Below, in pieces: positions 1-64,000 of a stretch of 64,000 bases of DNA. Positions within the stretch are counted from its first letter, which is position 1. The number at the start of each line of letters is the position of its first letter. A program made the position numbers and the translations under genes. This stretch comes from Calothrix sp. FI2-JRJ7. Lineage in GTDB: Bacteria; Cyanobacteriota; Cyanobacteriia; Cyanobacteriales; Nostocaceae. Location: the NCBI GenBank assembly GCA_019359675.1, contig JAHHGX010000091.1, positions 1 through 64,000 on the forward strand, given 5' to 3'. The notes under the pieces are model-generated. The model ran no database searches. It was not told where the DNA came from and saw only the letters and a list, made by a program, of their open reading frames with translations.

Positions 1-2
1 TA

Positions 3-119
3 GATGAATTAAAAGAAGCTGTCTGGAAACAGCTAGATAAATTTACTACTTCTCAAATACAATCTATTGCTGGATGGAATTTTATTTTAGAGGCTTTATT
101 TGTATCAGGCTTTTCGTGA
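3..119 (+). pseudogene. C-terminal scrap of a transposase (IS630-like)
   Basis: The frame enters from the left edge and ends at TGA 117-119. It encodes 38 residues ending in AGWNFILEALFVSGFS, which resembles the C-terminal tail of IS630/Tc1-type transposases of cyanobacteria, where a GW/GY-F-ILEAL pattern closes the protein. The DDE catalytic residues would lie outside the window, so I cannot tell whether the element is complete. No terminal inverted repeat is obvious just downstream. The family assignment rests on the tail motif only. Confidence 0.45.
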
Positions 120-192
120 AATGGTATAATTGGTGTATATAAGAGAAAATAGAAGTATTGCGACCCTTATAATAATGAACTAATTACTAGCC

Positions 193-510
193 ATGACTGA
201 AGCCAAACCAACTCGTACTGTACGTCGAGGACGCATTTTCCCCGAAATCCAGTGGACAGAAGAACAATTTGCCGAATGGGAAGCGGAGGGTGAGAAATTT
301 TATCAACGTTGTAAACCCATTTTTGATAAAGTTAAAGCTGAATTGATTGAGACTCATTATAATTGGTTTGTTGCGGTTGAACCAGATAGTGGGGAGTATT
401 TCGTTGATAAAGATTTAGAAGTTGCTTCACGTGTATGTCGTGACAAACATCCTGATAAAATACATTATGCTTTCCGAATTAATGAAACAGGGGTTTGCGG
501 TACAATATGA
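193..510 (+). CDS. Small conserved hypothetical protein, partner of a retropepsin-like gene
   Basis: This 105-aa soluble, acidic protein has no signal peptide or membrane segment. It opens with a basic stretch (TRTVRRGRIF) followed by PEIQWTEEQFAEWEAEGEKF, and the middle contains NWFVAVEPDSGEYFVDKD. Its stop overlaps the start of the next gene by four bases (ATGA, 507-510), so the two are probably co-translated. Pairs of this kind, a small protein followed by a retroviral-type aspartyl protease-like protein, recur in cyanobacteria. Whether they form a toxin-antitoxin-like unit is unknown. No clear Shine-Dalgarno sequence precedes 193. I do not recognise a biochemical function. Confidence 0.65.
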   Translation: MTEAKPTRTVRRGRIFPEIQWTEEQFAEWEAEGEKFYQRCKPIFDKVKAELIETHYNWFVAVEPDSGEYFVDKDLEVASRVCRDKHPDKIHYAFRINETGVCGTI

Positions 511-872
511 CGATTGAAGGTAGATTTGGTGATGAGGATGCGTTAATTTTCGAGGTAGCACTTATTGATGACCAAGGATTAGAGCTACAAACTGATGCAA
601 TGTTTGATAGTGGCTTTTGATACTGGTTAGCAATCGATAGTCAAGATATAAGTGCTTTTAATTGGGTTTTTATACGACGGCAAACAATGGAAACTGCACG
701 TGGAAATTTTAGGTTTAGCATTTACGCAGGTAAGATAAAACTTGATGGTAGTGAATATGACATTCCTGTTCACGTCGGTCAAGGTTTATCTGAAGTTTTA
801 CTTGGGCGCCAATGGCTAACAACTCGAAGGTTAGTAGTTGATATGCCCCAACGTTTACTAACTTTGGGATAA
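507..872 (+). pseudogene. Retropepsin-like aspartyl protease, interrupted by an in-frame TGA
   Basis: The frame begins at ATG 507, overlapping the upstream stop, and reads MTIEGRFGDEDALIFEVALI, then FDSGF, where the D-S-G is the single catalytic motif of retroviral-type aspartic proteases. TGA 618-620 follows directly. The same frame continues without another stop (YWLAIDSQDI, then YDIPVHVGQG and LLGRQWLTTRRLVVDMP) to TAA 870-872. Intact relatives continue from the DTGF/DSGF motif through WLAID to the LLG-QWL motif, so both halves belong to one protein of about 121 residues. An internal ATG at 687 could start only the C-terminal half, without the active site. A simple nonsense mutation is the best reading. 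Confidence 0.8.
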
Positions 873-1500
873 TAGTGAAGCTGTGGATAAATTATAAAAA
901 ATAATCCAGCTTTTTAGTTTATCCACCCAACAGCATCCTATACATTTTTAGAGATTATATCATTCCAATATAAAAGGCGCCCTGATAATTTAGAAACGTG
1001 TCCATTGCTTAAAAAAGCAAATCAGCAACTGTGATTTTTTACAACTTATGCACGGATTGCTATAGACCATATATAGCAACGGCGCCGTTTCATTGACAAA
1101 ATCTGTATTCTTGCATTACGTACATTATTTATAAAATTCCCACGTTGTGAAGACGTGATATATCACGTCTCTACATTCAGGCATTTTTTACAATTCACAA
1201 ATATATTACTGCACAGGCGAAGAAGGCCTATGCTACGGTCTCAGTCTTTATCCGTTACATCCGTTAGATCCGTTGCCAATTACTCCAACTTCACGAAATA
1301 ATGTTTTTGCCCTTGTAGTTTCTTAATAGATGCGACATGCTAACCAACGTATATCGCATACCTACAGTACGTAAGTTGATTAAGGTGCATTTTCCTCATG
1401 CATCCAAGCATTCTACCTGGGTTGTGAATAGAGTAAGTACATCTCTATACGCGGCCCTTTTTTCCACTTAGAATAAACGTGCTACATAAGGAAAATTATC
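873..1500. other. Gene-free stretch with hairpins and repeats
   Basis: No gene is supported here. A hairpin follows the pseudogene at once (arms GTGGATAAA 883-891 and TTTATCCAC 918-926) and could act as a terminator. A copy of the 28-bp GTAGAGACGT palindrome family lies at 1147-1174. Near 1248-1277 CCGTTAnATC is repeated as a short degenerate tandem. Two GGCGCC sites are present. The end of the stretch holds the leader of the gene starting at 1501. Confidence 0.6.
1147..1174. repeat. 28-bp palindromic repeat, GTAGAGACGT family
   Basis: Right arm TATCACGTCTCTAC matches the family arm; the left arm (GTGAAGACGTGATA) differs at two positions from the perfect complement. Other copies lie at 9070-9097, 19188-19215, 19909-19936, 35940-35982 and, inside a gene, 49410-49437. 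Confidence 0.8.
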
Positions 1501-8342: not shown

Positions 8343-9056
8343 ATGGACTTGACAAACTCGAATACCGCAAACAATTTGGCTGAAGCTTTTGGTGGAGAAT
8401 CAATGGCTAATCGTAAATACCTATTCTTTGCGGAAGTGACACGTCATTTAGGTATGCATGAACTATCAAAGTTATTTCGTGAAACTGCACAGCAAGAAAC
8501 GGAACATGCATTTGCCCATTTTAGATTAATGCATCCAGAGTTAGCTGTAACAGATGCTGCATCATTAACACCCGAACAGAAAAAAGCAATTGCTGCGCGT
8601 TGTTTGGAGTTAGCAATTGAGGGTGAGACATACGAGTACAGTGTAATGTATCCGGGTTTTGCAGAGCAAGCGCGTACAGACCGAGATGGAAGTGCAGTCG
8701 TTGAATTTGAAAAGCAGCAAGCAGAATCTGTGGAACATGCTCAAACCTTCTGTAAAGCAGCACATAACTTTGGCTTGCTAACACACATCGAAAATCACCA
8801 TGCTCAACAGTATAGTGAAGCGTTGCGAGCATTAGATGGAGTGGCGCCTGCTACTAAAGCTAAAACAGGAAACCCAGCAACACAAAAATGGATTTGTCGT
8901 CAATGTTCCATGATATATGACCCAATAACAGGCGACCCAGACTCAGGTATTGCACCTGGTACACCGTTTGAAGCAATACCCGACGACTGGAAATGTCCAA
9001 TTTGCGGCGCCCAGAAAAAGCTCTTTGTTATATACGAAGAAGCAGTGGCAGGATAA
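8343..9056 (+). CDS. Rubrerythrin (diiron domain plus rubredoxin domain)
   Basis: Rubrerythrins reduce hydrogen peroxide at a diiron site, with electrons entering through a rubredoxin iron centre. The 237-aa protein starts best at ATG 8343 ([20 protein letters not shown]). The four-helix part shows the metal ligands in [15 protein letters not shown] and [14 protein letters not shown]. The C-terminal rubredoxin domain has two CxxC pairs, [11 protein letters not shown] and [13 protein letters not shown]. Length and domain order are normal. It is probably a single-gene unit; the stop is followed by a 28-bp palindrome and then the convergent end of the giant kinase. Confidence 0.93.
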
Positions 9057-9069
9057 TAAAACACGTCGT

Positions 9070-9097
9070 GTAGAGACGTTACATGTAACATCTCTAC
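9070..9097. repeat. 28-bp palindromic repeat, GTAGAGACGT family
   Basis: Left arm GTAGAGACGTTACA, right arm TGTAACATCTCTAC, one mismatch. It lies between convergent genes and just overlaps the stop codon of the giant kinase gene, so it may work as a shared terminator. Confidence 0.85.
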
Positions 9098-12000
9098 GAG
9101 GATTTTGATAAAATTACCGGGATGCGAATTATAAATTGTGTGCCTTCCCCAGGTGCTGAAATGCACTCTAAGGTTCCACTATGTTTCTGTGTAACTATTT
9201 GATAGCTAATACTAAGTCCCAAACCAGTACCCTTCCCTTGTGGTTTAGTTGTAAAAAATGCATTAAATAATTTCTGCCGTACAGCTTCGGTCATTCCTAA
9301 ACCATTATCACCAATGCTCATAGTTATCCAGGCATCTTGATAACTAGTATGGATAGTAATAATATTGTTAATTCTTTCGTATGATTTACCCTGGTTTGCT
9401 TCCTCTAGTGCATCAATGGCATTAGCAATTAGGTTCATAAATACTTGGTTGAGTTGTTGAGGATAACACTCAACGTGGGGTAAATCGCCATAATCTTTAA
9501 TAATTTTTATTGCAGGACATTCTGGTTTGGCTTTCAAACGATGGCTAAGTATCATCAACGTAGTTTCAATACCCTCATGAATATCGACTACACAACATAC
9601 ATCGCCATTATTACGAGAGAAATTACGTAGTGATTGCATAATATCTTTGATACGAACAGTACCTAGTTTCATTGATGAAATCATTTTGGGTAAATCTTCA
9701 AGTAAATACTCTAAGTCAATAGTTTCTGCATCTTCTAAAATTTCAGATGGTACTTCTGAAAAATGCTGTTGATATAGTTCGAGGTGGTGAATTAAATCTT
9801 CTATATATTGTTGGGCATGAGTTAAATTACCATTAATGAAGCTAACAGGATTATTAACCTCATGAGCAACACCAGCAACTAATTGTCCTAATGATGAAAT
9901 TTTTTCTGTGTGTACGAGTTGCGCTTGGGTAGAAGAAAGCTTTTCTAAAGATTCTTGTAGTTGCTGTGCTTTGTTTTGTTCAAGAGCATAAAGTCGCGCG
10001 TTTTCGATAGAAATAGAAACTTGAGAACTGAGTAAATTCAATATTTCTAACCTATCGGCGGTAAAAACACCTGTGGTAAGATTATTTTCTAAATATATAA
10101 TTCCTGTAAGTTTACCTTGATGAATTATCGGCAAACACAAGACTGATTTCGGTTGATTTTTGATGATATAAGGGTCAAAAGCAAAAACTTTAGAATGACT
10201 AGCATTTTCCAAAATAATATTTTTTTCGGTGCGTTCGACATAATTCAGTACAGAGAATGGTAAATTTGATACATCATTAAATTCATTCGTTGCTACTTCT
10301 ATTATCCAATTAGATTCACGCTTGCTAACCAAACACGCTTTTTGGGCGCCTGCATTTTCCTGTAAAATTATAATTAATTTATTAAGTAAACTAGGTAAAT
10401 TAATTTCACTGGAAAGCGTTTGAGATGCTTTAATAACAGTATGTAAATCAAGTAAACTTATTCCAGTTGTTGTGCTGACTGTACGAATAATGTCAGTTTT
10501 AGCTTGGTTGTTTATTTTGACTGCTAAAAATTTATTATATTTTTCTTCAAGCTGCTTAACTTTATTCTTCGCTCCCCATACAGTATAGCAATAGTGAGAT
10601 TGTAAAAGATAGTCTGTAGCAAGTCGGTTTCTACCCTTTGCAAAATAAAACTTAGCAGTTAGTTCTGTTGCCAAAGCTTCATTTTGCCGAAAACCAGCTT
10701 CTGTAGCAAGAGTAATTGCTTGGTCGTATAATTCCATAGCTTGATAATCTTGTCCAGAAATTTTAGCAACTTCTGCTTGAAGCAATAAATACATATGTTG
10801 ATAATTTTCCGGGGAATGCTTTGCCCAATGACTAAATTTTTCTAAATTTAGGCTAAGTTTTGTAAAGCTTTGCTCATTTTTAAATTCGGCGCCTCCTGAA
10901 GGGTTACAATAGGCATTGCTTAACGCAATACTTTGATGAAAGTAGAAAACCGGATTGATAAAAATTCCTTCTGCACCTTCTACACATTTTTCTGCAAGTT
11001 CAGCATACTCGACTGCTTTTGTATACTCACCATACCAATTACAAAGTACCAACTTATAAAGGTAAACAACAAAAATAGTTAACAAATCCGCAGAATTATG
11101 TGCAAATTCTAATACCTGATGTTCGTCTATATATTTGTTTGATAAGTTTTGTCGTATTGCATCAGGTTCTACTAAATTGGTAATTAGCTCTTTTGTTAAT
11201 AAATGGTAATTGAGCATATTCTTGTCAATTCTTTGCAGAGTAGAAGTAAAATCATCTGCAATTGCAGCAGTTTCTTGTAAAGATGTGTCTCCAAATAAGC
11301 ATTGCCAAATATAATTAACAGAGCAATAACCAGACCATTGATATGAACCTGTTTCTAAACCACTACTAAAACCCTGTTTTAGATAAGGCTTACATTGACT
11401 AATATGTTTTTTGTAGTGGAGAATTAAACCTCCCCACATATTAAAAAGATTAGCTTCTAAATCCTGAGTTTGTAAAACTTCATGTAATTTGAGGGCTAAA
11501 TTACCAAATTCATATCCTAACTCGACTTCGCCATGCCTAAACACCAAGGTAAAACTATAAAGCATATACCCAAATACGGAAATTGGGGAATTGCCATAAT
11601 TAATTGAAAGTTGAGTAAGTTTCTTGGCACAGAGGTGCAAGGCTTTAGAACCTAAAAAATAAGCAATAGGCCATACTTCCTTAAGAGTCCGTTGAGCCAT
11701 CAGCTTTTCAGGGTCTTGCATTTTTGGTAATAGAGCTAAACAAGCAACGTCGCGAACGCCTATCATTGCTTTTGTCGCCTGATGTTCTTTTAAGAGATAC
11801 CCCTCATTTGGGTAAGCTTCAAACTCGATACCCAACATTTGTAATGTATTTAGACCAACCTCATAGGCAGGAATCAAATTATTTTTCATGCGATAACACA
11901 TGATTTTATACTCGTTTACTTGACATCGTTCTAATAAAGTTTTAACATTGCCAAGCGCTACATCTAATACTGCCAAACCTGCATCATTATTGCCATTTAA

Positions 12001-14436
12001 ATATTCAGTTACACCTGTCTCTAAATAAAGGTCGAGCGTCAATGAATAATGTGTTTGCCAAGAATCAAACGGTAAACAACTAATTCCGATTTTCAGAAGT
12101 TTTAAAGCTGTTTCAAACGCAGAAGAAGATTTAGCTCGTTTACCTGCTAACAAATTTAATTCTGCTAATTGATAATGTTCTGATGGCGCCGTAATTAATG
12201 TCTGAGCAAGGTTCAGATGATTAACGATATCAAAAATCTTTTCTTCGAGTTCAGATGGTTTTGTATTACGCAATAGCATTTGTCCAACTTGTAAGTGTAC
12301 CTTCTGTTTTTCCGAAGCTGGAATTAACGTATACGCTGCTTGTTGAACTCGGTCGTGTAAGAACTTATAATCAACTTGGACTGCTGTCTGATAAAATGTC
12401 TCTAAATTAGACTGTTCCCAAACTAGAGGTATTTTATAATTATTGTTTAAAGGTACAACTAAACCTGCTAATAAGGCTGACCATAAATCTGCTGCTGTTT
12501 GTGTCAGAGATTGTTGACTAACTACAGCCAAACTATTTAAATCAAAGCAATTATTAATACATGAAGCTAATTTCAAAATTTGTCGAGTTGACTGTGGTAG
12601 TTTTTGAATTTTAGCAATCATCAAATCAACTACATTATCAGTGATATCTCGATTTTCAATTTGGTTAATATCCCACGACCAAGTGCTATTATTAATATTA
12701 AAGTTTAATAATGACTCTTGATAAAGTGATTTAATTAATTGATTTATAAAGAATGGATTTCCTTGAGTTTTGTTATATAATAAATTTGCTAAAGGTTTAA
12801 TTTCTATGGGAGAAGATTTTACTGTATCAATAAGTAATTGCGTGAGATGAGATACTGATAAAGCTTGTAACGTAATTTCTTCAACCTTCACTCCCGCACC
12901 TCGAATATCCTCCACAGTTAAAATAAAGGGATGGGTTTTGTTGACTTCATTATTGCGATAGGCAGCAATTAATAGTAAATACTGAGTTTCGGAGTCAGTC
13001 ATAAGTAACTGAATTAATTTTAACGAAGCAGCATCTGCCCATTGGAGGTCATCTAAAAATATTACCAGTGGATGTTCTTTGTTGGCAAAAACATGAATAA
13101 ATTGCTTAAATACCAAATTAAAACGCATTTGTGCTTCTACTGGTGCTAGTGGCGATACAAATGGCTGTTTCCCTATAATTAATTCGACTTCTGGAATGAC
13201 ATCAATAATAATTTGCCCGTTATTACCGAAAGCATTCAATAGCTTTTGGCGCCAATCTTGAATTTTTGCGTCACTTTCGGCTAATAATTGTCGCACTAAT
13301 TCGACAAACGCCTGAATTAGAGAAGCAAAGGGAATATTACGCTTAAACTGGTCAAATTTGCCAGAAATAAAATAACCTCGTTGACGAGTAATGGGACGAT
13401 GAATTTCATTAACCAAAGAAGATTTACCAATCCCAGAATAACCAGCGACTAACATCATTTGGGCGCCACCCAAACTAACATTAGTAAAAGCACTAATTAA
13501 TGTCGTAACTTCCGCTTCTCGACCGTAAAGTTTTTGAGGAATTTGTAGTTGATTTGACCAATCTTGCTGACTTAAAGGAAAAGGAACTATTTCTCCTGTC
13601 ATTTCTAATTGGCGAATACATACCTCTAAATCAGCTTTTAACCCATAAGCGCTTTGGTAACGTTCCTCCGCAGTTTTCGCCAGTAATTTCATCACAATTT
13701 CAGATATAATACCTGGCACATCAGGATTTAACTTGTTAGGAGGAACAGGAATTTGAGCAATATGACAGTGTACCAACTCCATTGGGTCTTGAAAATCTTT
13801 AAAAGGTAACTGAAGAGTCAGCATTTCGTAAAAAGTTACACCGAGAGAATAAAAATCAGTGCGGTAATCTAGGTCGCGATTCATTCTCCCGGTTTGTTCT
13901 GGGGACATATACGTTAACGTCCCTTCTAATTGGTTGGCGTTGCTTAAAGATGGTGTTTCTTTACTCAGTTTTGAGGCAATGCTAAAGTCTGTTAGTTTTA
14001 CCTGTTTTGTCTGGGCATTAATAATGATATTAGCTGGTTTGATGTCTTTATGAATGATGCAGTGAGTATGCAAAGATACCAGGGCTTGCGCTAGTTGTAC
14101 GGCAATGTTAAGAATATTTATCAGCGGCAACTTTGTTCTCGTTAGATATTGCTTAAGACTAATGCCCTCAAAGTCTTCTGCTACAAGTACAAGGCGATTT
14201 TGGTAAGTTTCTAATCCATAGACTTTAACTACCTGATCTAAGTCCAGATTTTCAGTAATTGTGTACTCATGCCGAAGGCGCGTAATCTCCTCTAAAGTTG
14301 GGTATTCTGCTTTCAGGATTTTCAGAATAACAGGTTGTTGTTGTGGTTGTGATAATCCTCGGTAAATTACTGTATTTAAGCCTTCGTAAATTACTTCAGT
14401 AATGTTATAGCCTGGAATCTTTAAACTGGAGAGCAT
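9094..14436 (-). CDS. Giant Ser/Thr kinase - AAA/STAND - GAF - histidine kinase hybrid (HstK-type)
   Basis: This 1780-aa multidomain signalling protein has four parts. (1) A Hanks-type Ser/Thr kinase at residues about 1-270, with HCIIHKDIKPANIIINAQTK and TDFSIASKLS; the DFG position reads DFS. (2) An AAA/predictor ATPase part with Walker A GYSGIGKSSLV near 332 and VIFLDDLQWADAASLKLIQL, followed by a long helical, TPR-like region. (3) A GAF domain at about 1320-1460 (FAFDPYIIKNQPKSVLCLPI). (4) A histidine kinase with H-box LVAGVAHEVNNPVSFINGN near 1524 and ATPase motifs DNGLGM and GKGTGLGLSISYQI. Such HstK-like proteins are typical of filamentous cyanobacteria. No partner response regulator is adjacent; the input is unknown. 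Confidence 0.93.
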   Translation of the reverse strand: MLSSLKIPGYNITEVIYEGLNTVIYRGLSQPQQQPVILKILKAEYPTLEEITRLRHEYTITENLDLDQVVKVYGLETYQNRLVLVAEDFEGISLKQYLTRTKLPLINILNIAVQLAQALVSLHTHCIIHKDIKPANIIINAQTKQVKLTDFSIASKLSKETPSLSNANQLEGTLTYMSPEQTGRMNRDLDYRTDFYSLGVTFYEMLTLQLPFKDFQDPMELVHCHIAQIPVPPNKLNPDVPGIISEIVMKLLAKTAEERYQSAYGLKADLEVCIRQLEMTGEIVPFPLSQQDWSNQLQIPQKLYGREAEVTTLISAFTNVSLGGAQMMLVAGYSGIGKSSLVNEIHRPITRQRGYFISGKFDQFKRNIPFASLIQAFVELVRQLLAESDAKIQDWRQKLLNAFGNNGQIIIDVIPEVELIIGKQPFVSPLAPVEAQMRFNLVFKQFIHVFANKEHPLVIFLDDLQWADAASLKLIQLLMTDSETQYLLLIAAYRNNEVNKTHPFILTVEDIRGAGVKVEEITLQALSVSHLTQLLIDTVKSSPIEIKPLANLLYNKTQGNPFFINQLIKSLYQESLLNFNINNSTWSWDINQIENRDITDNVVDLMIAKIQKLPQSTRQILKLASCINNCFDLNSLAVVSQQSLTQTAADLWSALLAGLVVPLNNNYKIPLVWEQSNLETFYQTAVQVDYKFLHDRVQQAAYTLIPASEKQKVHLQVGQMLLRNTKPSELEEKIFDIVNHLNLAQTLITAPSEHYQLAELNLLAGKRAKSSSAFETALKLLKIGISCLPFDSWQTHYSLTLDLYLETGVTEYLNGNNDAGLAVLDVALGNVKTLLERCQVNEYKIMCYRMKNNLIPAYEVGLNTLQMLGIEFEAYPNEGYLLKEHQATKAMIGVRDVACLALLPKMQDPEKLMAQRTLKEVWPIAYFLGSKALHLCAKKLTQLSINYGNSPISVFGYMLYSFTLVFRHGEVELGYEFGNLALKLHEVLQTQDLEANLFNMWGGLILHYKKHISQCKPYLKQGFSSGLETGSYQWSGYCSVNYIWQCLFGDTSLQETAAIADDFTSTLQRIDKNMLNYHLLTKELITNLVEPDAIRQNLSNKYIDEHQVLEFAHNSADLLTIFVVYLYKLVLCNWYGEYTKAVEYAELAEKCVEGAEGIFINPVFYFHQSIALSNAYCNPSGGAEFKNEQSFTKLSLNLEKFSHWAKHSPENYQHMYLLLQAEVAKISGQDYQAMELYDQAITLATEAGFRQNEALATELTAKFYFAKGRNRLATDYLLQSHYCYTVWGAKNKVKQLEEKYNKFLAVKINNQAKTDIIRTVSTTTGISLLDLHTVIKASQTLSSEINLPSLLNKLIIILQENAGAQKACLVSKRESNWIIEVATNEFNDVSNLPFSVLNYVERTEKNIILENASHSKVFAFDPYIIKNQPKSVLCLPIIHQGKLTGIIYLENNLTTGVFTADRLEILNLLSSQVSISIENARLYALEQNKAQQLQESLEKLSSTQAQLVHTEKISSLGQLVAGVAHEVNNPVSFINGNLTHAQQYIEDLIHHLELYQQHFSEVPSEILEDAETIDLEYLLEDLPKMISSMKLGTVRIKDIMQSLRNFSRNNGDVCCVVDIHEGIETTLMILSHRLKAKPECPAIKIIKDYGDLPHVECYPQQLNQVFMNLIANAIDALEEANQGKSYERINNIITIHTSYQDAWITMSIGDNGLGMTEAVRQKLFNAFFTTKPQGKGTGLGLSISYQIVTQKHSGTLECISAPGEGTQFIIRIPVILSKSS

Positions 14437-14642
14437 TATTTCACCTCATGTACTGCGTTCACTATTTCTAGAGTTCCCACAGCACAAGTGAAAGTCTTAT
14501 ACTACATTAAAATACATAATAATTACTAGTACCGTGCGGCGTAAATACGCCTACCATTTTCAAAGGCTGCAAATCATGATTTTTTCAAGGCTCGTAATGG
14601 TGGGTTTATTTCCGCCGTCGTATACTAGTTTTGGGGAGTTGG

Positions 14643-14701
14643 CGCCGATTTTAAATCTGTCTTACTCGCACCTCTGTGTACTCTGTGTCTCTGTGGTAAA
14701 G
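14643..14701. repeat. Dispersed CTCTGTG-type repeat reading into a gene end
   Basis: CGCCGATTTTAAATCT is followed by CTTACTCGCACCTCTGTGTA and CTCTGTGTCTCTGTGGTAAA. The first part recurs at about 61948-61970, and the CTCTGTG part recurs at about 59033-59056. The repeat supplies the last dozen codons of the adjacent hybrid kinase gene (FTTETQSTQRCE, stop at 14662-14664). Confidence 0.7.
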
Positions 14702-17700
14702 AGAATTTTATCGGGTTCTGTTTGAGCAAGTGGAAGTACGATACTAAAAGTAGCTCCTAGTCCGACTCCGGGACTTGTGGCTTTTACAGTTCCTCCATGA
14801 AGCTCAATAATTTGTTTGACAATTGAAAGTCCCAACCCCAAACCGCCTGCATTGCGTCTAATAGAAGAATCTTCCTGCCGGAAACGGTCGAAAACGTAAG
14901 GCAAAAAATCAGGCTTTATGCCAATTCCTGTATCACTAACTGTAAGGGATACGCGCGAGTCTATCTTAGAAAGTGACACTTGTATCTTTCCGCCTTCAGG
15001 GGTAAATTTAATGGCATTGGAAACAAGATTCCATACTACTTGTTGCAAGCGATTTGAGTCTCCTATAATAGAAGCACTCAAAGCATCCAAAACTGTTTGA
15101 AGTTGTATATTCTTTGCTTGCAAAGTTGGAAGGAAGGATTCGATAGCAGCTTGAATTACTGAGTTAAGATTAATTTCCTTAAAGTCGAGTCGAACTTTTC
15201 CCGACATTATTCGGCTCATATCAAGAAGGTCTTCGATAATTTGCGCTTGCGCTCGTGAATTTCTTTCAATTACCTCAAGCCCTTTTTTGAATTCCGCAGG
15301 AACAGTCTTTTGCTTACGTAAAATTTGTGCCCAACCAAGGATGGAATTAAGCGGTGTCCTTAGTTCATGAGAAACGGTTGCTAAAAATTCATCTTTGAGG
15401 CGCCCAATTTGCTCGGCTTGTGCGCGGGCAACCTGTTCACTTTCTAAAAGTGCTTCACGGCGTGCCTCTAGCTCTTTACGCTCAGTAATATCATGTAAAT
15501 TAACAGAAAGTCCATCGACAGAAGGGTAGGCAAACACTTCCAGCCAACGATTAGAAAAAGGAGATAATACTTCAAAGTACACAGCTACTTGCTCACGCAT
15601 AGCTTTGTAATACTGCTCCTCAAAAGCACTTCCCTTAACCATCTCAAACTCTTCCCAAATAACTTTACCAAGTAGCTCGGAGCGGTCTTTACCTAAATAT
15701 TCCTCACATCGACTGTTTATATAAGTAAAACGCCACTCCCGGTCAAGACCATAAAAAGCATCGGTTACTCTTTCAAGAATTGTTGCCCGAAGTTTCACTG
15801 CTTCAACTTCAATTCTTGAATTTGCAGCTTCCTGCCGTAACCGTGATGTTTCCAAAGTTGCTTTCACACGAGCCAAAAGCTCCCGCGCGCTAAAAGGTTT
15901 TATTAAATAATCGTCTGCTCCCGATAAAAGTCCCTCGACACGCGACTCTTCACCCGCGCGAGCCGAAAGCAGCACAATTGGTACACAACTAGTACGTTCA
16001 TCTGAGCGCAACTGAGCAAGAAGACCAAAACCGTCGAGTTTCGGCATCATCACATCACTTAGTACAATATCTGGCAAATGTTCACGAGCATATGCTAAGG
16101 CTGCTTCCCCATCTGCCACGGCAATAACTTCATATTGTGTACATAGAAGTTTTCGCACATACTCACGCATATCTGCATTATCGTCCGCCAGAAGCACTTT
16201 TGCTCGTGGTAGCTGTATTTCATTAAATTCTGCTTCTTCGACATCCTCTACATTATCTGCCAACCACCCAAGCGCTTCTTCAACAAATGCGTCTGACCGA
16301 ATGTTTGTTTGGTTAAGTATACTCTCACTAACAAGCTCGTTATTTTTAAGGTGTTGCTTACCGCATGGAATTGAGACAGTAAAAGTACTTCCTTGACCAT
16401 AGACGCTTTGTACTTGTATGGCGCCACCATGAAGTTGTACTAGTTCTTGTACAAGCGCCAGCCCAATTCCAGTTCCTTCATGTGTTCGACCTTGGGTTTC
16501 TTCAATGCGGTAAAAGCGCTTAAACACATTTTCAATTTCAGACTCAGGGATACCACAACCTGTATCTTGAACGTGTAACTCAACGTTTTCCCCAACTATG
16601 TATTGTTTAACACCAATATGTCCAATTTGAGTAAACTTAAAAGCATTTGAGAGTAAGTTAAGAACAATTTTCTCCCATTTATCTCGGTCTACATACACAT
16701 GTTCTTTTAAAGGTGGACAATCAACTATAAGCTGTAATCCTGCTTTCTCAATTGTAGACCGGAACACGCTTGCAAGGTCTGTAGTCAGTGCCGCCAAATC
16801 TGTAAGCTCATAAACAGATTGCATTCGGTTAGCTTCGATGCGCGAAAAATCTAGAAGCGTGTTAACCAGTTTAAGCAACCTTAAACTATTACGATGAGCA
16901 ATCTTTATTCGTTCTGTTTGAGTTGGTGTGGTTTCCGGGTCTTGGAGAGCATCCGACAGTGGCCCCAACATCAACGTTAATGGAGTTCTAAACTCATGGC
17001 TAACGTTCGAGAAGAAAATAGTTTTTTCCCGGTCAAGTTCAGCGAGCTTCTGCGCGCGTTTGCGTTCTTCTTCGTGAGCTTGAGCATTTCGCAAAGCGAC
17101 AGATACTTGACCTGCAAGTAGTTCGTAGAACGAAGTATACCCTTCATCAAGCGCGCGGTTAGGACTAATTCCAGCAACCATAACCCCAAGAGGCGCCGCA
17201 GTACCTGAAGAAGCGATAGGCATTACAAGCGCCGCACGCGTTGGTTCGTTCCAAGGTCCCCCTGGTAATAATTGATGCTGGTCTATATTTTCAATTAAAA
17301 CAGTTTCACCCTTATAAGCTTGTTCAAGCGACCATATGTCATCTTTTTGAGGCGCCGATATATCAAAAGTAACCGGGATAATATGCTCGGCATCGGCAAC
17401 CCTTACCATACTTTGGAGTGTGAGAGTTTTTCCATCAACAGAGCGAAGGTAAATTAGCGCAAACGGCACATCAAGCGGGTGTTCTGCTATCGCTGCTGCA
17501 ACAGAGTGACACGTTGTTTCTACACTTTGTGTCTCACCAGCTTTAGATGCAAGGTCACGAAGCAATCTTAACCTGCGGGCGCCTAATACCTGCTGAGTCA
17601 CCTCACTACAAACGCAGAACATCCCGACTACTTGCCCGTCTTCATCCGACTCTGGAGCATGAGAAAGGCTAAAATAAGATTCTTCACGGTAGCCTGAGCG

Positions 17701-18063
17701 CTCCAAAACTAACATTTGTGCCTCAACCCAGTTTGCTACCCCCGTTGTCATTACTTCATCAATCATGGGGCCGAGCGTATCCCACGCTTCAGCCAACGTA
17801 ATTCTTATATCAGTACCGAGAGCAGCAGGGTGCTTATCACCGATAAGTTTTGAATAAGCATCATTATAAAACTGAATTAAATGAGGCCCCCATATTAAAA
17901 CCATTGGGTAGCGTGAAGCCAAAAGCGTTTTAACAGTGCTTTTAAGACTTTGCGACCACGTTTCAACCGCACCAACAGGTGTACTATCCCAGTCGAAAGC
18001 ACGCATACGCGCCCTCATCTCGCCTTGTCCTGGGAAAAAGTTTAATTGATGCTCATGGTTCAT
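14662..18063 (-). CDS. Hybrid sensor kinase: PAS-GAF-HisKA/HATPase-REC-PAS-HisKA/HATPase
   Basis: This 1133-aa soluble hybrid kinase contains two complete kinase modules. In order they are: a PAS-like N-terminus (MVLIWGPHLIQFYNDAYSKL); GAF at about 165-325; first kinase with H-box FFSNVSHEFRTPLTLMLGPL near 358 and DTGCGIPESEIENVFKRFYR; receiver domain from about 626 (VLLADDNADMREYV) with the phospho-acceptor in DIVLSDVMMPKLDGFG; PAS near 771; and a second kinase with FLATVSHELRTPLNSILGWA near 894 and GLGLGLSIVKQIIELHGGTV. No transmembrane helix is seen. The last residues, FTTETQSTQRCE, are encoded by a dispersed repeat. With the kinase hybrid downstream and the cyclase upstream it makes a minus-strand signalling block, but the spacing argues for separate transcripts. 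Confidence 0.92.
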   Translation of the reverse strand: MNHEHQLNFFPGQGEMRARMRAFDWDSTPVGAVETWSQSLKSTVKTLLASRYPMVLIWGPHLIQFYNDAYSKLIGDKHPAALGTDIRITLAEAWDTLGPMIDEVMTTGVANWVEAQMLVLERSGYREESYFSLSHAPESDEDGQVVGMFCVCSEVTQQVLGARRLRLLRDLASKAGETQSVETTCHSVAAAIAEHPLDVPFALIYLRSVDGKTLTLQSMVRVADAEHIIPVTFDISAPQKDDIWSLEQAYKGETVLIENIDQHQLLPGGPWNEPTRAALVMPIASSGTAAPLGVMVAGISPNRALDEGYTSFYELLAGQVSVALRNAQAHEEERKRAQKLAELDREKTIFFSNVSHEFRTPLTLMLGPLSDALQDPETTPTQTERIKIAHRNSLRLLKLVNTLLDFSRIEANRMQSVYELTDLAALTTDLASVFRSTIEKAGLQLIVDCPPLKEHVYVDRDKWEKIVLNLLSNAFKFTQIGHIGVKQYIVGENVELHVQDTGCGIPESEIENVFKRFYRIEETQGRTHEGTGIGLALVQELVQLHGGAIQVQSVYGQGSTFTVSIPCGKQHLKNNELVSESILNQTNIRSDAFVEEALGWLADNVEDVEEAEFNEIQLPRAKVLLADDNADMREYVRKLLCTQYEVIAVADGEAALAYAREHLPDIVLSDVMMPKLDGFGLLAQLRSDERTSCVPIVLLSARAGEESRVEGLLSGADDYLIKPFSARELLARVKATLETSRLRQEAANSRIEVEAVKLRATILERVTDAFYGLDREWRFTYINSRCEEYLGKDRSELLGKVIWEEFEMVKGSAFEEQYYKAMREQVAVYFEVLSPFSNRWLEVFAYPSVDGLSVNLHDITERKELEARREALLESEQVARAQAEQIGRLKDEFLATVSHELRTPLNSILGWAQILRKQKTVPAEFKKGLEVIERNSRAQAQIIEDLLDMSRIMSGKVRLDFKEINLNSVIQAAIESFLPTLQAKNIQLQTVLDALSASIIGDSNRLQQVVWNLVSNAIKFTPEGGKIQVSLSKIDSRVSLTVSDTGIGIKPDFLPYVFDRFRQEDSSIRRNAGGLGLGLSIVKQIIELHGGTVKATSPGVGLGATFSIVLPLAQTEPDKILFTTETQSTQRCE

Positions 18064-18206
18064 ATAGTATATTGTGGTGCGTTGCGCGCGTCGCGTTACT
18101 TAACCTTACATTAACTATTTTAATTTTAACTTATCAGAAATAAGTTTACTATATATTTATAGTAGTTGGTTTCGTTGAAATTAGGTATAACGATAGCTCT
18201 ACCTAC

Positions 18207-18839
18207 TTACAATTTCATTTCCACAACCATCATTCTCCAAATTACATCAAAATTAAATTTTGCAGCACGCTGAATATTAAAATTTGCAGATGTTAGTAAC
18301 TTGTGAAATTCTGCTTGAGTGTAGCAGCGTTTATGAGCAGAATTAAAGCTTTTTAGATATAGGTCAATTAAACGGCAAAAAAAGTAGTCTTTACACCAAT
18401 CTAAAATAAATACTTTTCCATCGGGTTTCAATACGCGCTTCATCTCAGCTAATGCGGCAACTGGGTCATCAAAAAAATGAAAAGCACTTGCAGAGACAAT
18501 TATATCAAAGCTGTGATTTGCAAATGGTAAACTAGAGGCGCGTGCTATTTGAAAATAAATATTAGGATATAAATTAGAATTAGCTATAAATTTATTCTTC
18601 GCAACAAGTAGCATCTGCTCAGAAATATCCACACCTGTAATATGCTGCTTAGGATTATCGCGTAATATTAAACTTTCAAACTCACCCGTTCCACAGCCAA
18701 CATCTAATACTGTATCTTGCGGCGAAATATTTGCCCAATTTTTCAGATAAGTTAGCGTTTTATTAATGTAGCTATTCCAACGCAGGTCATAAATATTAGC
18801 TATATTATCGTATTCTTGGCGAACTATGTTTTCCTTCAT
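18207..18839 (-). CDS. Class I SAM-dependent methyltransferase
   Basis: This 210-aa protein of the UbiE/COQ5-like methyltransferase group has motif I VLDVGCGTGEFESL (residues about 45-58), the acidic-loop region ITGVDISEQMLLVAKNKF, motif II SFDIIVSASAFHFFDDP, and motif III MKRVLKPDGKVFILDW. The substrate cannot be told from sequence. The C-terminal part after KRCYTQAEFHKLLTSA is typical of small-molecule methyltransferases. It lies 13 bases downstream of the YnfA-family gene on the same strand and may be co-transcribed with it. Confidence 0.85.
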   Translation of the reverse strand: MKENIVRQEYDNIANIYDLRWNSYINKTLTYLKNWANISPQDTVLDVGCGTGEFESLILRDNPKQHITGVDISEQMLLVAKNKFIANSNLYPNIYFQIARASSLPFANHSFDIIVSASAFHFFDDPVAALAEMKRVLKPDGKVFILDWCKDYFFCRLIDLYLKSFNSAHKRCYTQAEFHKLLTSANFNIQRAAKFNFDVIWRMMVVEMKL

Positions 18840-18852
18840 AAATATAACTTTA

Positions 18853-19179
18853 CTAGTTCCGAGGTGTGTACATCATAATTAACACGCCTATGAGTACAAT
18901 ACTAGCACCCAACCAGTCAAACTTATCCGGCGCCACTCCGTCAACTTTCCAACCCCATATAATAGATAAAATAATAAAAATACCACCGTATGCAGCATAC
19001 GCACGTCCAAAATTAGCAGGTTGTTTTGTAGCAACAAACCCGTATACAGTGAGCAATCCTGAACCAAGCAAAGCTAGAACAGGACTTTTACCTTCGCGCA
19101 ACCACAGCCAAACTAGATAACCTCCACCTATTTCACATAATCCAGCAATAATGAAATAAAAAACAGAATTAATTAGCAT
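18853..19179 (-). CDS. YnfA/UPF0060 family small membrane protein
   Basis: This 108-aa integral membrane protein has four hydrophobic segments, starting [20 protein letters not shown], then [33 protein letters not shown] and [20 protein letters not shown]. The E-I-GGGYLVW and GRxYAAYGG motifs are diagnostic of UPF0060/YnfA, which belongs to the small multidrug/DMT-like transporter group. Substrate and direction are not established. Length is normal. The methyltransferase gene follows 13 bases after its stop, and a GTAGAGACGT palindrome lies just upstream of its start. Confidence 0.92.
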
Positions 19180-19187
19180 TATTAAAT

Positions 19188-19215
19188 GTAGAGACGTGAC
19201 ATGTTACGTCTCCCT
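19188..19215. repeat. 28-bp palindromic repeat, degenerate GTAGAGACGT copy
   Basis: Left arm GTAGAGACGTGACA; right arm TGTTACGTCTCCCT has diverged at its end. It lies directly upstream of the YnfA-family start codon, in the leader. Confidence 0.7.
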
Positions 19216-19237
19216 CCCCTACGTCAATTTCCTATTA

Positions 19238-19846
19238 TTAACGTTTTTTTATAAACCACGCAGCAGTTCCCACAACACCCAACCCTATAACAACTGGTAA
19301 CGCAATTGATAGAACATTAGTTCCTTCTGGTTCTGTTGAAGCACTGGCGCCACTTACTTTCTGTGCTTGTTGTGGAGATACTTGAGGGGAGGGTGTTACT
19401 TTTTCTCCGGTTGCGACTGTAACATCATAATTCATGGTGAACGCCCGAAAATCACCTTCGGTCTTGGGAGTACAATTTAACTCTAACTGATAAAGACCTA
19501 CTGAAGGAAAAATAATATTGGCGCCGGGAATACCTTGATATTTTTCTGCGTTGATAGCTTGAACGCTTGGTTGAAGGATAGGTTTATCAGTGGGTTTGCG
19601 AGGTTTTGAGAAAACTGCCATATTACAGTTTGCTTCATTAAGAGGTAATATTTTTCCTCCTTTGCGAGTTAGTGCGACCCAAGCTCTCGCTGTTTCCCCA
19701 GCTTTAGGACTATGGTTTGGTTCAACATGCCAAAGACCTGCTATGTCTCCTTTTACCTGAATGTTGTGGGCAGCAGCGGGAGAAATTATGGAAGCTAGAA
19801 TAATTATCCAGCTTAGATTTCTAGTTAAGTTTGGCAGAGGCAACAT
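19238..19846 (-). CDS. Secreted, C-terminally anchored protein with beta-sandwich-like domain
   Basis: This 202-aa protein has an N-terminal signal peptide (LSWIIILASIISPAAAH, cleavage likely near residue 26). A domain of about 120 residues begins HNIQVKGDIAGLWHVEPNHS and contains AGETARAWVALTRKGGKILP, CNMAVF and FPSVGLYQLELNC. A low-complexity linker (SPQVSPQQAQKVSGASAST) and a C-terminal membrane helix ending WFIKKR follow. The first histidine after cleavage and the sandwich-like strand pattern resemble CopC/YtkA-type periplasmic domains, but I cannot assign metal binding. The topology suggests a periplasmic domain tethered to the inner membrane. No adjacent partner points to a pathway. Confidence 0.7.
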   Translation of the reverse strand: MLPLPNLTRNLSWIIILASIISPAAAHNIQVKGDIAGLWHVEPNHSPKAGETARAWVALTRKGGKILPLNEANCNMAVFSKPRKPTDKPILQPSVQAINAEKYQGIPGANIIFPSVGLYQLELNCTPKTEGDFRAFTMNYDVTVATGEKVTPSPQVSPQQAQKVSGASASTEPEGTNVLSIALPVVIGLGVVGTAAWFIKKR

Positions 19847-19908
19847 AAGATTTTATTTGAAAAATCTCACATGCCAAGTTTGATGTCAAAAGACGTGCTG
19901 TCATAGTT

Positions 19909-19936
19909 GTAGAGACATTACATGTAACGTCTCTAC
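19909..19936. repeat. 28-bp palindromic repeat, GTAGAGACGT family
   Basis: Left arm GTAGAGACATTACA and right arm TGTAACGTCTCTAC, one mismatch. It lies between the cyclase stop and the next minus-strand gene, in the position of a terminator for the cyclase. Confidence 0.85.
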
Positions 19937-19953
19937 ATACGGGTAATGTAAAT

Positions 19954-24884: not shown

Positions 24885-24899
24885 GAATGCGCTCGTATT

Positions 24900-24940: not shown

Positions 24941-24957
24941 AGTACAGTACGTAATAA

Positions 24958-26544: not shown

Positions 26545-26649
26545 TAGCGAGTTTTGCGATTTGGGTCTACTGGTTATTTTATTAACTAAGCAAACAAATT
26601 AAAAGCCATTTTATGATTTTTTTGACAAATCAGCTTAAATATGGCGTAG

Positions 26650-53902: not shown

Positions 53903-55636
53903 TTAAAATCCTAAGTCGGCTTTTGCTAATTCTGCTGCTGCGAATACTTCTTCGTCGTCTTTTTCTTCCCAAATTGGGTCTCCTATTTCGCGGTAGAATT
54001 GTTCATCGTATGGACGTGTACGCACAACTACTGGCATTGGTACTGCGTGACCTAGAATTAATGCTTGTTGTTTTGAGTCTAGTTTTGCTAGTACTGAGCG
54101 TAATGCGGTACCACCTGATACTCCTGTAAAGATTGCTTCAATGTCTTTTTCGTCGTTTAATAAAGCAGTAACGCGCGTACCAATTTGAGACATAACTTCA
54201 TTATCAATTCCCGATGGTCGCTGGTCTACTACTAATAGTGTTACGAAATATTTCCGCATTTCGCGTGCGATGGTTCCAAAGATGGTACTGGCAACAATAG
54301 CAGGGTCGAGGAAACGGTGTGCTTCTTCAATCGTAATTACTAGTTGAGTTGGTTTATCTGCCACGTTACCTGATTGGAGAAATTTCTCGGCTTTGGCTAC
54401 ATAATGTTGGTGAATACGACGTGTAATCATGTTTGTCACCAGCATGTACGATAACATGTCTGACTGCGAACCAAATTCAATTACTATGTTTTTGCCAGCT
54501 TCGAGAGTTTTTAAAATTTGGTTGACATAATTCTGTGGACATGCTGACCGCATGTATTTTAGGTTCTCCATCCGTAACAGTTTGCGCTGTAATGCGGTGA
54601 TGGAACCTTGGTGTCCACGTTTTTCTTCGCAAAATGTCTTGATTTCTTCGTTGGTCATGTTGATTAATTGAAGAATCCAAGATTTTCCAAATTCGGCAAA
54701 GAGTATATTCGCGTTATCGAGACTTGCTTCCGAAAGTCCAAGGTCACGACTGCAAAGACGAATATCTTCTACTTCGATTTGGTCGTAGCTAAGGTATAAT
54801 TCTTGAGCGTTTTGTACGCCTCGACGTTTTGTAGAAGCTGGGTCAAGGGTATATACTTCGACTTTATCGGGGAATAATTGCTTTAACCCTTTTACTGTAC
54901 TGTATTGTTTACCTTCGCAAACGGCTTGCCAACCATATTCTGAGTGCATATCAAATATAAGGTTAACCCCAGCATTTTTGCGAACTATCCCAGCTAATAG
55001 TAAGCGTGTCAAGAAAGATTTCCCGGTACCTGATTTACCAAATACACCGTTACTGCGTTCGACAAATCTATCTAAGTCGATACAAACCGGAACATCCATA
55101 TCTAATGGTTTGCCAATGGAAAAATTCTTGCGATGAATATCGTCTTCCCAACCAAAAACGCGACGAAAATCTTCTTCGGATGCTTCGTAAACTTGGCTGA
55201 AGTGACTGGGAATCGTTTTTACTGGTAACAATTCCATTGTTGTGCTGGTTTGAGGTTGAAACGATGCCAAACCTTTAAGTCCATTTGGGACTTCATGATT
55301 TGCAGATTTTCCATTTGTGAATGTTGGTTTTTCCTCAGCTTCGGGGGTGAACATTAACATCGGCGCCAGATTAATAGTGCCATAAGTACCACTACCTGCC
55401 AACACTTCACGTAAAAAACTATCTTCCCAATTTGGAGGATTTGCAATGATTCGTTGGTTAGCAAGACCGAGTGCAACATCAGTCAACATACAAAAGAAAC
55501 GCGACCGCATCCCCTGCACTACCAAAAATTTCCCGACACGCATATCTTCTACAGAAATATCGGGGTGCAAACGCACTTCTAGTCCACCTGTAAGCGAACC
55601 TTGAGTAATTGAACCTAACGGCTGTCCCAACTGCAT
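53903..55636 (-). CDS. HerA-like ATPase (DUF87)
   Basis: This 577-aa protein starts at ATG 55636 (a GTG at 55648 is also possible). The N-terminal beta-barrel-like part is GQPLGSITQGSLTGGLEVRL and IRV-type segments typical of HerA/FtsK relatives. The ATPase core has Walker A NGVFGKSGTGKSFLTRLLLA near residue 205 and Walker B LVITIEEAHRFLDPAIVAST. A conserved arginine segment follows (VVDQRPSGIDNEVMSQIGTR). HerA ATPases form hexamers that translocate DNA, usually with the nuclease NurA; no NurA gene is next to it here. The C-terminal VVRTRPYDEQFYREIGDPIW is normal for cyanobacterial members. Confidence 0.9.
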   Translation of the reverse strand: MQLGQPLGSITQGSLTGGLEVRLHPDISVEDMRVGKFLVVQGMRSRFFCMLTDVALGLANQRIIANPPNWEDSFLREVLAGSGTYGTINLAPMLMFTPEAEEKPTFTNGKSANHEVPNGLKGLASFQPQTSTTMELLPVKTIPSHFSQVYEASEEDFRRVFGWEDDIHRKNFSIGKPLDMDVPVCIDLDRFVERSNGVFGKSGTGKSFLTRLLLAGIVRKNAGVNLIFDMHSEYGWQAVCEGKQYSTVKGLKQLFPDKVEVYTLDPASTKRRGVQNAQELYLSYDQIEVEDIRLCSRDLGLSEASLDNANILFAEFGKSWILQLINMTNEEIKTFCEEKRGHQGSITALQRKLLRMENLKYMRSACPQNYVNQILKTLEAGKNIVIEFGSQSDMLSYMLVTNMITRRIHQHYVAKAEKFLQSGNVADKPTQLVITIEEAHRFLDPAIVASTIFGTIAREMRKYFVTLLVVDQRPSGIDNEVMSQIGTRVTALLNDEKDIEAIFTGVSGGTALRSVLAKLDSKQQALILGHAVPMPVVVRTRPYDEQFYREIGDPIWEEKDDEEVFAAAELAKADLGF

Positions 55637-55780
55637 GTTAATAAGCACATAATGTTCTCGATATATATTAAATCGAATTTTAATATAAATGTTAAAAAAT
55701 CAAGAAAAAATGTACTACAACAGAAAAAAGGGGTAAAGGGTAAGAGAAAAATGTTCTTTTCCTTTCCCCCTTCAGCTTGT

Positions 55781-62734: not shown

Positions 62735-62932
62735 TCTTAAAATTCTCCTTTCAAAAACACACTGTCATTGTACTCTCATAAGCGCGCGGATTCAATATTT
62801 AAGTAGTTGCATTGATCTGAAAATGGGTATTTTTGTCTTTTTATTAACAAAAACGTTGTTAAGTGTACTGAGATGGCGAATGTTAACTAACGACTTTACG
62901 CTAAGATTAAGCAAAGCTGTTACACAAATGCC

Positions 62933-63508
62933 ATGACTGCCATTACCATCAACTTTAATAATGTAGTCAAGCTTACCGACGACCAATTTTATCAATTGTG
63001 TCAGGATAATCCTGAACTCAAATTTGAACGTAATCAATGGGGACAACTGATAGTAATGCCACCAACAGGAGGAGAAACAGGGAAACGCAATGCCAAACTT
63101 ACCGCGCGGTTTGTACTGTGGAACGAACAAACCGAACTGGGAGAAGTATTTGACTCTTCAACTTGTTTTAAACTACCCAATGGTCCCGACCGTTCCCCCG
63201 ATGTATCATGGATACAAATAGACAGATGGAATGCACTTACATCTAGAGAACGAGAAAAATTTCCCCCTATTGCTCCTGACTTTGTGTTGGAGTTAATGTC
63301 TCCATCTGATAGTTTGAGTGAAACTCAAGCTAAAACGCGCGAATATATGTCAGCAAGAGTTAGATTAAGTTGGTTGATAGATAGAAAAAATCGTCGTGTA
63401 GAAATTTATCGCTTGGGGCAAGATGTAGAAATATTAGATTCTCCTGCAACATTATCAGGAGAAGATGTACTACCTGGTTTTGTTTTAGATATGAGGTTAG
63501 TGTGGTAG
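62933..63508 (+). CDS. Uma2 family (DUF820) putative endonuclease, intact
   Basis: This 191-aa protein has all family motifs in order: LTDDQFYQLCQDNPELKFER, VMPPTGGETGKRNAKLTARF, the PD aspartate in PDRSPDVSWIQID, the E-x-x-S strand in PDFVLELMSPSDSLSETQAK and the helical segment YMSARVRLSWLIDRKNRRVE. It therefore serves as an in-window reference for the internally deleted copy at 42221-42616. Members of this expanded cyanobacterial family are predicted PD-(D/E)XK nucleases without proven roles. No neighbour suggests a system. Confidence 0.9.
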   Translation: MTAITINFNNVVKLTDDQFYQLCQDNPELKFERNQWGQLIVMPPTGGETGKRNAKLTARFVLWNEQTELGEVFDSSTCFKLPNGPDRSPDVSWIQIDRWNALTSREREKFPPIAPDFVLELMSPSDSLSETQAKTREYMSARVRLSWLIDRKNRRVEIYRLGQDVEILDSPATLSGEDVLPGFVLDMRLVW

Positions 63509-63608
63509 TGGTAGTAGGGTACATTAGAATTTGGCTACAGAGACAACGCACGTGTATTTTGAAAACTAATGTTAGTACTGTTTGTTTAATGAAAACAGCC
63601 CAATTATA

Positions 63609-63722
63609 ATCCCCCCTAACCCCCCTTGATAAGGGGGGAACAAGAGGGGTTCGCGCTCTTTTTTTAAAACACTATAATAAGCCAATTCTTAGCCCCCCCT
63701 TATTAAGGGGGGGTTGGGGGGG
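63609..63722. repeat. Two C6/G6 palindromic repeats
   Basis: CCCCCCTAA-CCCCCCTTGATAA-GGGGGG (63609-63640) and CCCCCCC-TTATTAA-GGGGGGG-TT-GGGGGGG (63693-63722). Both strands offer multiple G-tracts. They lie between two convergent genes, and the right copy ends just before the stop codon of the last gene. Confidence 0.85.
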
Positions 63723-63723
63723 A

Positions 63724-64000
63724 TCAAGAAGCGCGCGTATACCTATGTTTCACACCTACAGGAAAGTATTCGGCATCACCATGTAATTTTAATGTAATTT
63801 GCGGCGCCTGATATTCGGCTGGTACATAGTTTGCAAATTCGCTGTTGAGGCGCCTTAGTTGTGTCAATATAGATGTTGTTATTGCTTGTTTTTTATCAAC
63901 GCTTGCTTCGATATTTGGCGCCAGTTCTACGGTAACTGTTAAATGTCTATTTTTGTCACTATCTTCAATTACTTGTAAAACAAATTTGCCTGTTACCCAT
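63724..64000 (-). CDS. C-terminus of an adenylate-forming enzyme (phenylacetate-CoA ligase / F390 synthetase-like), partial
   Basis: The frame enters from the right edge and ends at TGA 63724-63726. The 91 visible residues include VTGKFVLQVIEDSDKNRHLT, VTVELAPNIEASVDKK, LRRLNSEFANYVPAEYQAPQ and DAEYFPVGVKHRYTRAS. The tail of the form FxxYVPxExQxPxVxL-x-x-x-GDxEYFPVGVKHRYTR is one I associate with cyanobacterial CoA ligase/F390 synthetase-like proteins. The ATP-binding motifs would lie outside the window, so the assignment is tentative. Two GGCGCC sites fall inside the fragment. Confidence 0.5.
   Translation of the reverse strand, partial: WVTGKFVLQVIEDSDKNRHLTVTVELAPNIEASVDKKQAITTSILTQLRRLNSEFANYVPAEYQAPQITLKLHGDAEYFPVGVKHRYTRAS

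Follow-up and report, generated by a model that had tools for sequence, protein, structure and literature searches.

GGCGCC as the alternate highly iterated palindrome of Dulcicalothrix, with fitted rates that suggest its restoration after mutation

The closest described counterpart of the array studied here is found in Calothrix PCC 7103. According to passages of Elhai (2015, PMC4390886), this strain is without highly iterated palindrome 1 (HIP1, GCGATCGC), and GGCGCC, the most overrepresented 6-mer of 97 genomes, was termed an "alternate HIP" in it. The same passages describe GATC at 16% of the expected level, a potentially active GATC restriction enzyme gene and two GRCGYC methyltransferases, the gain of the second being thought possibly critical. 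They further argue that alternate HIPs are sporadic and lie outside clades, state that the methylated base was at that time known for no GRCGYC enzyme, and report that HIP1 genomes encode solitary methyltransferases for words inside HIP1. They also put forward a GmeC-dependent repair model based on a mismatch-repair bias, with GGTGCC named as a source word. For M.BsaHI, a GRCGYC enzyme, a passage of PMC2413257 gives the central C as the methylated base. A literature search limited to open-licence papers found no later paper treating GGCGCC as a HIP. The present analysis concerns the GGCGCC array in a stretch of 64,000 nucleotides of Calothrix sp. FI2-JRJ7 (assembly GCA_019359675.1, contig JAHHGX010000091.1, positions 1 to 64,000), referred to as the window.

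The swap of the word and the GATC deficit are thus already known from the same genus, to which PCC 7103 belongs. What is added is the persistence of the array through a clade, a single conserved methyltransferase, a GATC gene pair in all seven genus genomes and a rate signature of restoration. For the question why cyanobacteria iterate a palindrome thousands of times, this genus, with its swapped word, offers a natural experiment.

GGCGCC, HIP1 and GATC in the window and in the genus

The window contains 108 GGCGCC sites, against 5.2 expected from a first-order Markov model and 3.3 from composition only. HIP1 is absent, and GATC occurs 17 times against 149 (first-order) and 224 (composition). 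The approximately 107, 0 and 17 occurrences counted by hand in an earlier, sequence-only reading of this DNA are therefore reproduced. All four bases are found 5' of the word (A 72, T 70, C 47 and G 27; both strands, n = 216), which indicates that there is no fixed flank. Over 296 kb of the same genome, 471 sites are distributed as 203, 74 and 110 among the three frames of the longest open reading frame (ORF) calls, the other 84 lying outside or at the edge of an ORF. The same reading had noted an enrichment of GCGCGC; this stands (20 vs 6.3 first-order), but CGCGCG is the more enriched of the two (27 vs 4.6). Normal levels were not found outside the window either, since the whole genome of 8.66 Mb holds 1880 copies of TGGCGCCA and only 31 of HIP1. 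The mean gap between sites is 590 bases, with a variance/mean ratio of 0.78 in 1-kb bins. Saturation would predict sites spaced more regularly than by chance; this was considered and rejected as too weak a signal (variance/mean of 0.69-1.01 over eight blocks vs 0.80-1.30 for AAGCTT). An Rfam scan of the window gave no matches.

The words were searched in 60 genomes, namely seven of the genus, 29 others of the family and 24 others of the order. The genus genomes are FI2-JRJ7 (G000), the metagenome-assembled genome C42_A2020_038 (G001), PCC 7716 (G002), NIES-4105 (G003), Dulcicalothrix desertica PCC 7102 (G004), Calothrix PCC 7103 (G005) and HK-06 (G006). Each of the seven carries 1082-2681 copies of TGGCGCCA, compared with 0-126 in the other family members and 0-317 in the others of the order. 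HIP1, in turn, occurs 31-163 times per genus genome and 535-7721 times in the 29 other family members, the lowest of these being G028 (535 in 10.7 Mb). In samples of 136-200 kb from the seven genomes, GGCGCC reaches 14-20 times its first-order expectation and GATC 0.06-0.31 times; in larger samples of 228-312 kb the corresponding values are 14-20 and 0.07-0.35. The density of GGCGCC is 1.20-1.76 per kb throughout (1.47 in NIES-4105 and 1.20 in C42_A2020_038), that is, near 1000-2000 per million bases. With such an excess of a GC-rich palindrome, such a density and HIP1 nearly absent, the genus Dulcicalothrix has GGCGCC as its alternate HIP. Because all seven genomes share it, the view of alternate HIPs as sporadic and not confined to clades fails here, and the suggestion of a lineage-specific iterated palindrome is supported, HIP1 being carried by the 29 other family members searched. 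Collectively, the comparison confirms that the GGCGCC excess, the HIP1 loss and the GATC deficit are real, genome-wide and clade-wide.

Several other words show unusual frequencies. GGCC is avoided as strongly as GATC, with 15 occurrences in the window against 114 expected and 0.10-0.13 times expectation in all seven genus genomes (0.11-0.13 in the larger samples). CGCGCG is a second enriched palindrome, at 4-8 times expectation in the seven genomes and strongest in NIES-4105 (168 in 180 kb); only eight copies occur in three HIP1 relatives (G012, G009 and G010; 260 kb). TTCGAA is nearly absent, both in the genus (0-1 per 136-200 kb in each of the seven) and in the same three relatives (0 in 260 kb), and GTGCAC, GCATGC, GAGCTC and CCATGG occur 0-1 times per genus sample. 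G043, from another family of the order, has 317 copies of TGGCGCCA together with 2362 of HIP1 and possibly holds both words in one genome. Low HIP1 is also seen in G028, G042, G053 and G055 (535, 134, 206 and 673), with few copies of TGGCGCCA (68, 46, 2 and 2); these genomes may harbour other alternate HIPs. Finally, overlapping 8-mers of the 7-base unit ACTCAGC are strongly enriched at L155-L157 and L095-L097 in PCC 7716 and at L161-L163 and L101-L103 in NIES-4105, probably as tandem heptamer repeats.

Turnover of GGCGCC sites and codon-matched rates

For the analysis of turnover, six genomes were projected onto 296 kb of the FI2-JRJ7 genome in three blocks (the window, C31 and C85) by means of their best BLAST pieces. 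Five ingroup genomes lie approximately 4-6% apart, and NIES-4105 and C42_A2020_038 serve as outgroups. The rates depend on branch lengths that were fixed to those of FastTree, on orthology assigned by BLAST and on genes called as longest ORFs, and within-species polymorphism could inflate young losses. GGCGCC is present in five, four, three, two and one of the ingroup genomes at 140, 101, 39, 18 and 16 of 314 sites, the corresponding numbers for AAGCTT being 56, 18, 13, 9 and 24. The words produced by a CpG transition, GGTGCC and GGCACC, show the opposite distribution, with 91, 20, 5, 5 and 10 cases found in one to five genomes. Since so many occur in a single genome and so few in all five, lost GGCGCC sites seem not to stay lost. 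With a free root, a three-state fit puts the return rate of GGCGCC at 15.3, compared with rates of 0.16-1.42 among five control palindromes. Two apparent multi-base gains in FI2-JRJ7 were discarded, as they lie in stretches (L087, block C31, about 274-276 kb) that differ by approximately 17-33% from all six relatives, which points to import, paralogy or mis-assignment.

A codon-matched test used synonymous third positions at which the word is completed by C, or by G when read on the opposite strand. Of these, 249 qualified, and 238 showed only C/T (or G/A); the controls, matched for residue and following base, comprised 1536 sites, 846 of them only C/T. Ranges are the 5-95% interval of 40 bootstraps. 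The C-to-T rate is 3.51 (2.67-4.40) at target sites and 3.09 (2.58-3.92) at controls, so that the loss is ordinary, whereas the T-to-C rate is 27.6 (18.3-36.6) against 0.78 (0.61-0.87), an approximately 35-fold faster return. Four-state fits with all bases point in the same direction, both for Gly (T to C, 29.65 vs 0.60) and for Ala (A to G, 14.89 vs 0.43-1.40). Variable loss in place of restoration was rejected: two loss classes with a control-level return give a negative log-likelihood of 514.2 vs 471.0, 43 log units worse. If the return is left free, two loss classes reach 456.8 and the return is estimated at 38.5, with about 1% of sites falling into the additional class. The fraction of T at target sites varies from 6% (PCC 7716 and PCC 7102) to 17% (PCC 7103). 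Taken together, the seven-genome comparison suggests that mutated copies of GGCGCC revert unusually often.

The same positions bear on whether composition or codon usage alone makes the word common. In-frame Gly-Ala pairs do account for the largest share of sites, 203 of the 471. However, the third position of Gly is C in 87.5% of cases before GCC, compared with 9.7% before other codons starting with G and 3.2% before GCA or GCT, and the remaining frames, as well as DNA beyond the called ORFs, also contain the word. The codon-matched positions thus rule out codon usage as the cause, and this explanation retains practically no probability.

A different behavior is observed for the outer bases. 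At their synonymous third positions (209 target sites, 900 sampled control sites, 20 bootstraps), the C-to-T rate is 0.31 (0.17-0.47) against 1.70 (1.01-2.24) in controls, approximately five-fold lower. The C-to-T rate is higher at position 3 (3.5) than at position 6 (0.31), which may hint at methylation. Protection of this kind is what would be expected if weak selection kept GGCGCC for some function of the sites, such as strand marking, segregation or recombination, with repair being unbiased. The spread of the sites over every reading frame and beyond the called genes is also compatible with such selection, as is the strong retention of HIP1 in another genus at 4-9% divergence, where 26 of 34 sites persist in five of five genomes; this control is small (36 kb fetched per genome, 29,048 shared columns, 34 fully aligned sites). 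Nevertheless, if the strength of selection is set to match the outer positions (scaled S near 2.8, by the authors' own arithmetic), the T-to-C rate rises only about three-fold, to approximately 2, where the profile likelihood lies some 38 units below the best fit (508.7 vs 471.0), and the CpG C-to-T rate is not reduced at all; both arguments presuppose that within-species polymorphism does not account for most of the young T states. Taken by itself, selection does not readily explain how an ordinary loss at the CpG goes together with so rapid a return and with protection of the outer bases, and it is considered rather unlikely. The data suggest that methylation of the inner C together with a sequence-directed restoration fits better.

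Candidate enzymes and a possible mechanism

Cytosine methyltransferases (PF00145) are encoded in all seven genus genomes, with 9-17 matches each, some of them fragmentary. Clustering was performed on the proteins that passed a motif filter (46 loci, a subset of the matches; at least one gene, L045, escaped the filter). Cluster 0 is of the M.HindV type, its relation resting on 54.6% identity over 95% of the length to a plasmid gene annotated hindVM, which stands beside hindVRP. Its main member, the L018-type gene, is found at 81-100% identity in all seven genus genomes; in HK-06 full-length matches reach 83%, and a piece at a contig edge 97%. A search for a GGCGCC-specific methylase, as proposed in the sequence-only reading, thus yields a gene whose product, judged by homology, would be able to methylate the word throughout the genus. 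It contains the PPCQ and ENV motifs, and R221, followed by G/A at 223 before TI, is similar to the published description of the target-recognition stretch and, depending on the counting offset, may correspond to it. In FI2-JRJ7 it lies approximately 80 bases downstream of a RuBisCO-like gene, no restriction-enzyme family was found by Pfam among the four neighbors scanned, and its flanks are common to five of the six other genus loci examined. A search for the HindVP endonuclease (PF09519) matched none of 41 genomes; as the control likewise matched nowhere, this is uninformative. A second GRCGYC-type gene, about 60% identical, is full length in FI2-JRJ7, PCC 7716, NIES-4105 (two copies) and PCC 7103 and has a 244-residue frame in HK-06, and none was found in C42_A2020_038 or PCC 7102 at E <= 1e-60. 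Since only one enzyme was found in these two genomes, two GRCGYC methyltransferases appear unneeded for upkeep of the array. Also near the methyltransferase, an SLH-domain gene (L040:3422-3940) has a 172-residue frame in FI2-JRJ7, compared with about 680 residues in five relatives.

Concerning GATC, a full-length DpnII gene is present in all seven genus genomes and in one of 34 others (G015), with weak partial matches in G036 and G044. In each of the seven the endonuclease gene is free of internal stops and adjoins a D12 methylase gene of 85-100% identity; the neighbor in G015 is a methylase 62% identical. The earlier suggestion of past or present pressure against GATC, present at 0.06-0.35 times expectation across the genus, is supported by this pairing, and because every genome carries this gene pair, restriction-modification pressure is probably present and not only past. 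In the alignment, GATC sites are mostly of recent origin, 60 being confined to a single one of the five ingroup genomes and eight shared by all of them, a pattern that continuing selection against the word would be expected to give.

A mechanism consistent with these data can be outlined. The inner C of each site is most likely methylated (GG-5mC-GCC) by the GRCGYC-type cytosine-5 methyltransferase, a solitary enzyme that has been inherited vertically, and deamination of this C would give GGTGCC or GGCACC at a normal to high rate. The T would be returned to C approximately 35 times faster than at codon-matched controls, changes of the outer bases would be suppressed about five-fold, and the net effect would be to maintain the word at a density of 1.2-1.8 per kb. 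As the driving force, a methylation-directed mismatch-repair bias that resolves mismatches toward GGCGCC, exerted by a putative repair enzyme, is the most likely; weak selection for the sites may or may not help it. HIP1 was probably lost because the presumably active pair of D12 methylase and DpnII makes words containing GATC costly. That GGCGCC is a methylated alternate HIP kept by repair bias, with HIP1 lost through GATC restriction, is modestly favored. The more specific proposal that such a bias operates genus-wide without MutH or Vsr is put forward tentatively, falling short of being probable. The observed signature (T-to-C change raised about 35-fold, C-to-T unchanged, outer bases protected) is the prediction of Elhai's GmeC-dependent model for one-off words, and a role of methylation or repair selection of its own, as first proposed from the letters of the window, finds support at the level of both genes and rates.

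A number of observations weigh against this interpretation, some of them concerning turnover. On the terminal branches in the first 184 kb, one gain (1.1 expected) and 49 losses (56.3 expected) of GGCGCC are counted, 35 of the losses being CpG transitions; fast restoration emerges from the tree model and is not seen as many clean gains. The T-to-C rate at the outer positions, 5.2 with a range of 0-20, is too uncertain to be informative. Furthermore, the three-state fit favors a higher ancestral frequency over stationarity (negative log-likelihood 2556.9 vs 2562.9), as if the array were slowly shrinking; it is not read in this way, because all five control palindromes show the same preference. 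The surplus of losses, together with the skew of presence toward five or four of the ingroup genomes, could be taken to mean that the array is the relic of a past process and now decays. Yet the older branches have not accumulated loss, as apparent from the few CpG-transition words shared by all five genomes. NIES-4105, a lone long branch, has a T fraction (19 of 144 target sites) inside the range of the others, a stationary two-state fit is as good as a free one (471.18 vs 471.01), and the similar density in the two more distant genomes is partly against decay. A relic is consequently regarded as very improbable.

The remaining objections to maintenance by repair bias concern the enzymes. Relatives of the L018-type gene occur at 62-69% identity (E <= 1e-60) in seven of the 53 non-genus genomes, and these seven hold 0-35 copies of TGGCGCCA. 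Likewise, all 16 non-genus cyanobacterial loci with a 66-72% relative (L192-L207, among 80 loci fetched) are devoid of GGCGCC in 7.6-8.9 kb each and contain 1-12 HIP1. Carrying the enzyme is thus insufficient for an array. DpnII by itself does not remove HIP1 either, since G015 keeps 6202 copies. MutH was found in none of the seven genus genomes (two of 41 overall), and NucS gave one match in HK-06 (E 6e-7) and none in the other six (five of 41 overall). In E. coli, Vsr over-corrects at Dcm sites, and an enzyme of this very-short-patch type acting on T:G in GG(T)GCC would explain why the acceleration affects precisely the T-to-C change at the likely methylated position. However, Vsr (PF03852, the only family to which the search extended) was detected in none of the 60 genomes, the genus included, with its control matched in five of 14; the conserved 153-residue protein encoded near the methyltransferase has no Pfam match; and the reduced loss of outer bases would be left unexplained. 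Short-patch over-correction is accordingly judged improbable. The coordinates of the features are collected in Table 1.

Table 1. Features of the window and of the FI2-JRJ7 genome
Feature	Location	Strand	Remarks
GGCGCC array	1..64000	.	108 sites, about one per 590 bases; count and expectation
GATC avoidance	1..64000	.	GATC 17, HIP1 0, GGCC 15; window counts
HlyD-type membrane fusion protein, ordinary host gene	23136..24884	+	GGCGCC at 23328 and 23352
HerA/HAS-barrel ATPase, ordinary host gene	53903..55648	-	GGCGCC at 55362
DNA query for orthologous DNA	9001..28990	.	largest pieces 93-96% in HK-06, PCC 7102, PCC 7103 and PCC 7716; 86-92% in NIES-4105; 85% in C42_A2020_038
D12 methylase/DpnII pair	L107, 9057-10097 and 10184-11110		own genome

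Comparison with known systems

The repair-bias model becomes directly testable in PCC 7102, 7103 and 7716, because the swapped-in word persists across seven species, also where only one GRCGYC-type methyltransferase was found, and appears to have its CpG restored and not protected. With respect to PCC 7103 as described by Elhai (2015), the word, the loss of HIP1, the GATC deficit, the GRCGYC-type methyltransferase and the GATC restriction gene are the same; the difference is that the array persists here through all seven genus genomes and that its gain and loss rates have been fitted. Compared with M.HindV and M.BsaHI, the L018-type protein shares the C5 motifs and has a possible R-x-(G/A)...TI target-recognition stretch, but its gene in FI2-JRJ7 has no restriction-enzyme match beside it and its specificity is a predicted one. 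Finally, GGCGCC resembles the HIP1 of other cyanobacteria in being a GC-rich palindrome iterated about once per kb, whereas the word and the enzyme differ, and in the small control the HIP1 sites are the steadier, 26 of 34 being present in five of five genomes compared with 140 of 314 for GGCGCC.

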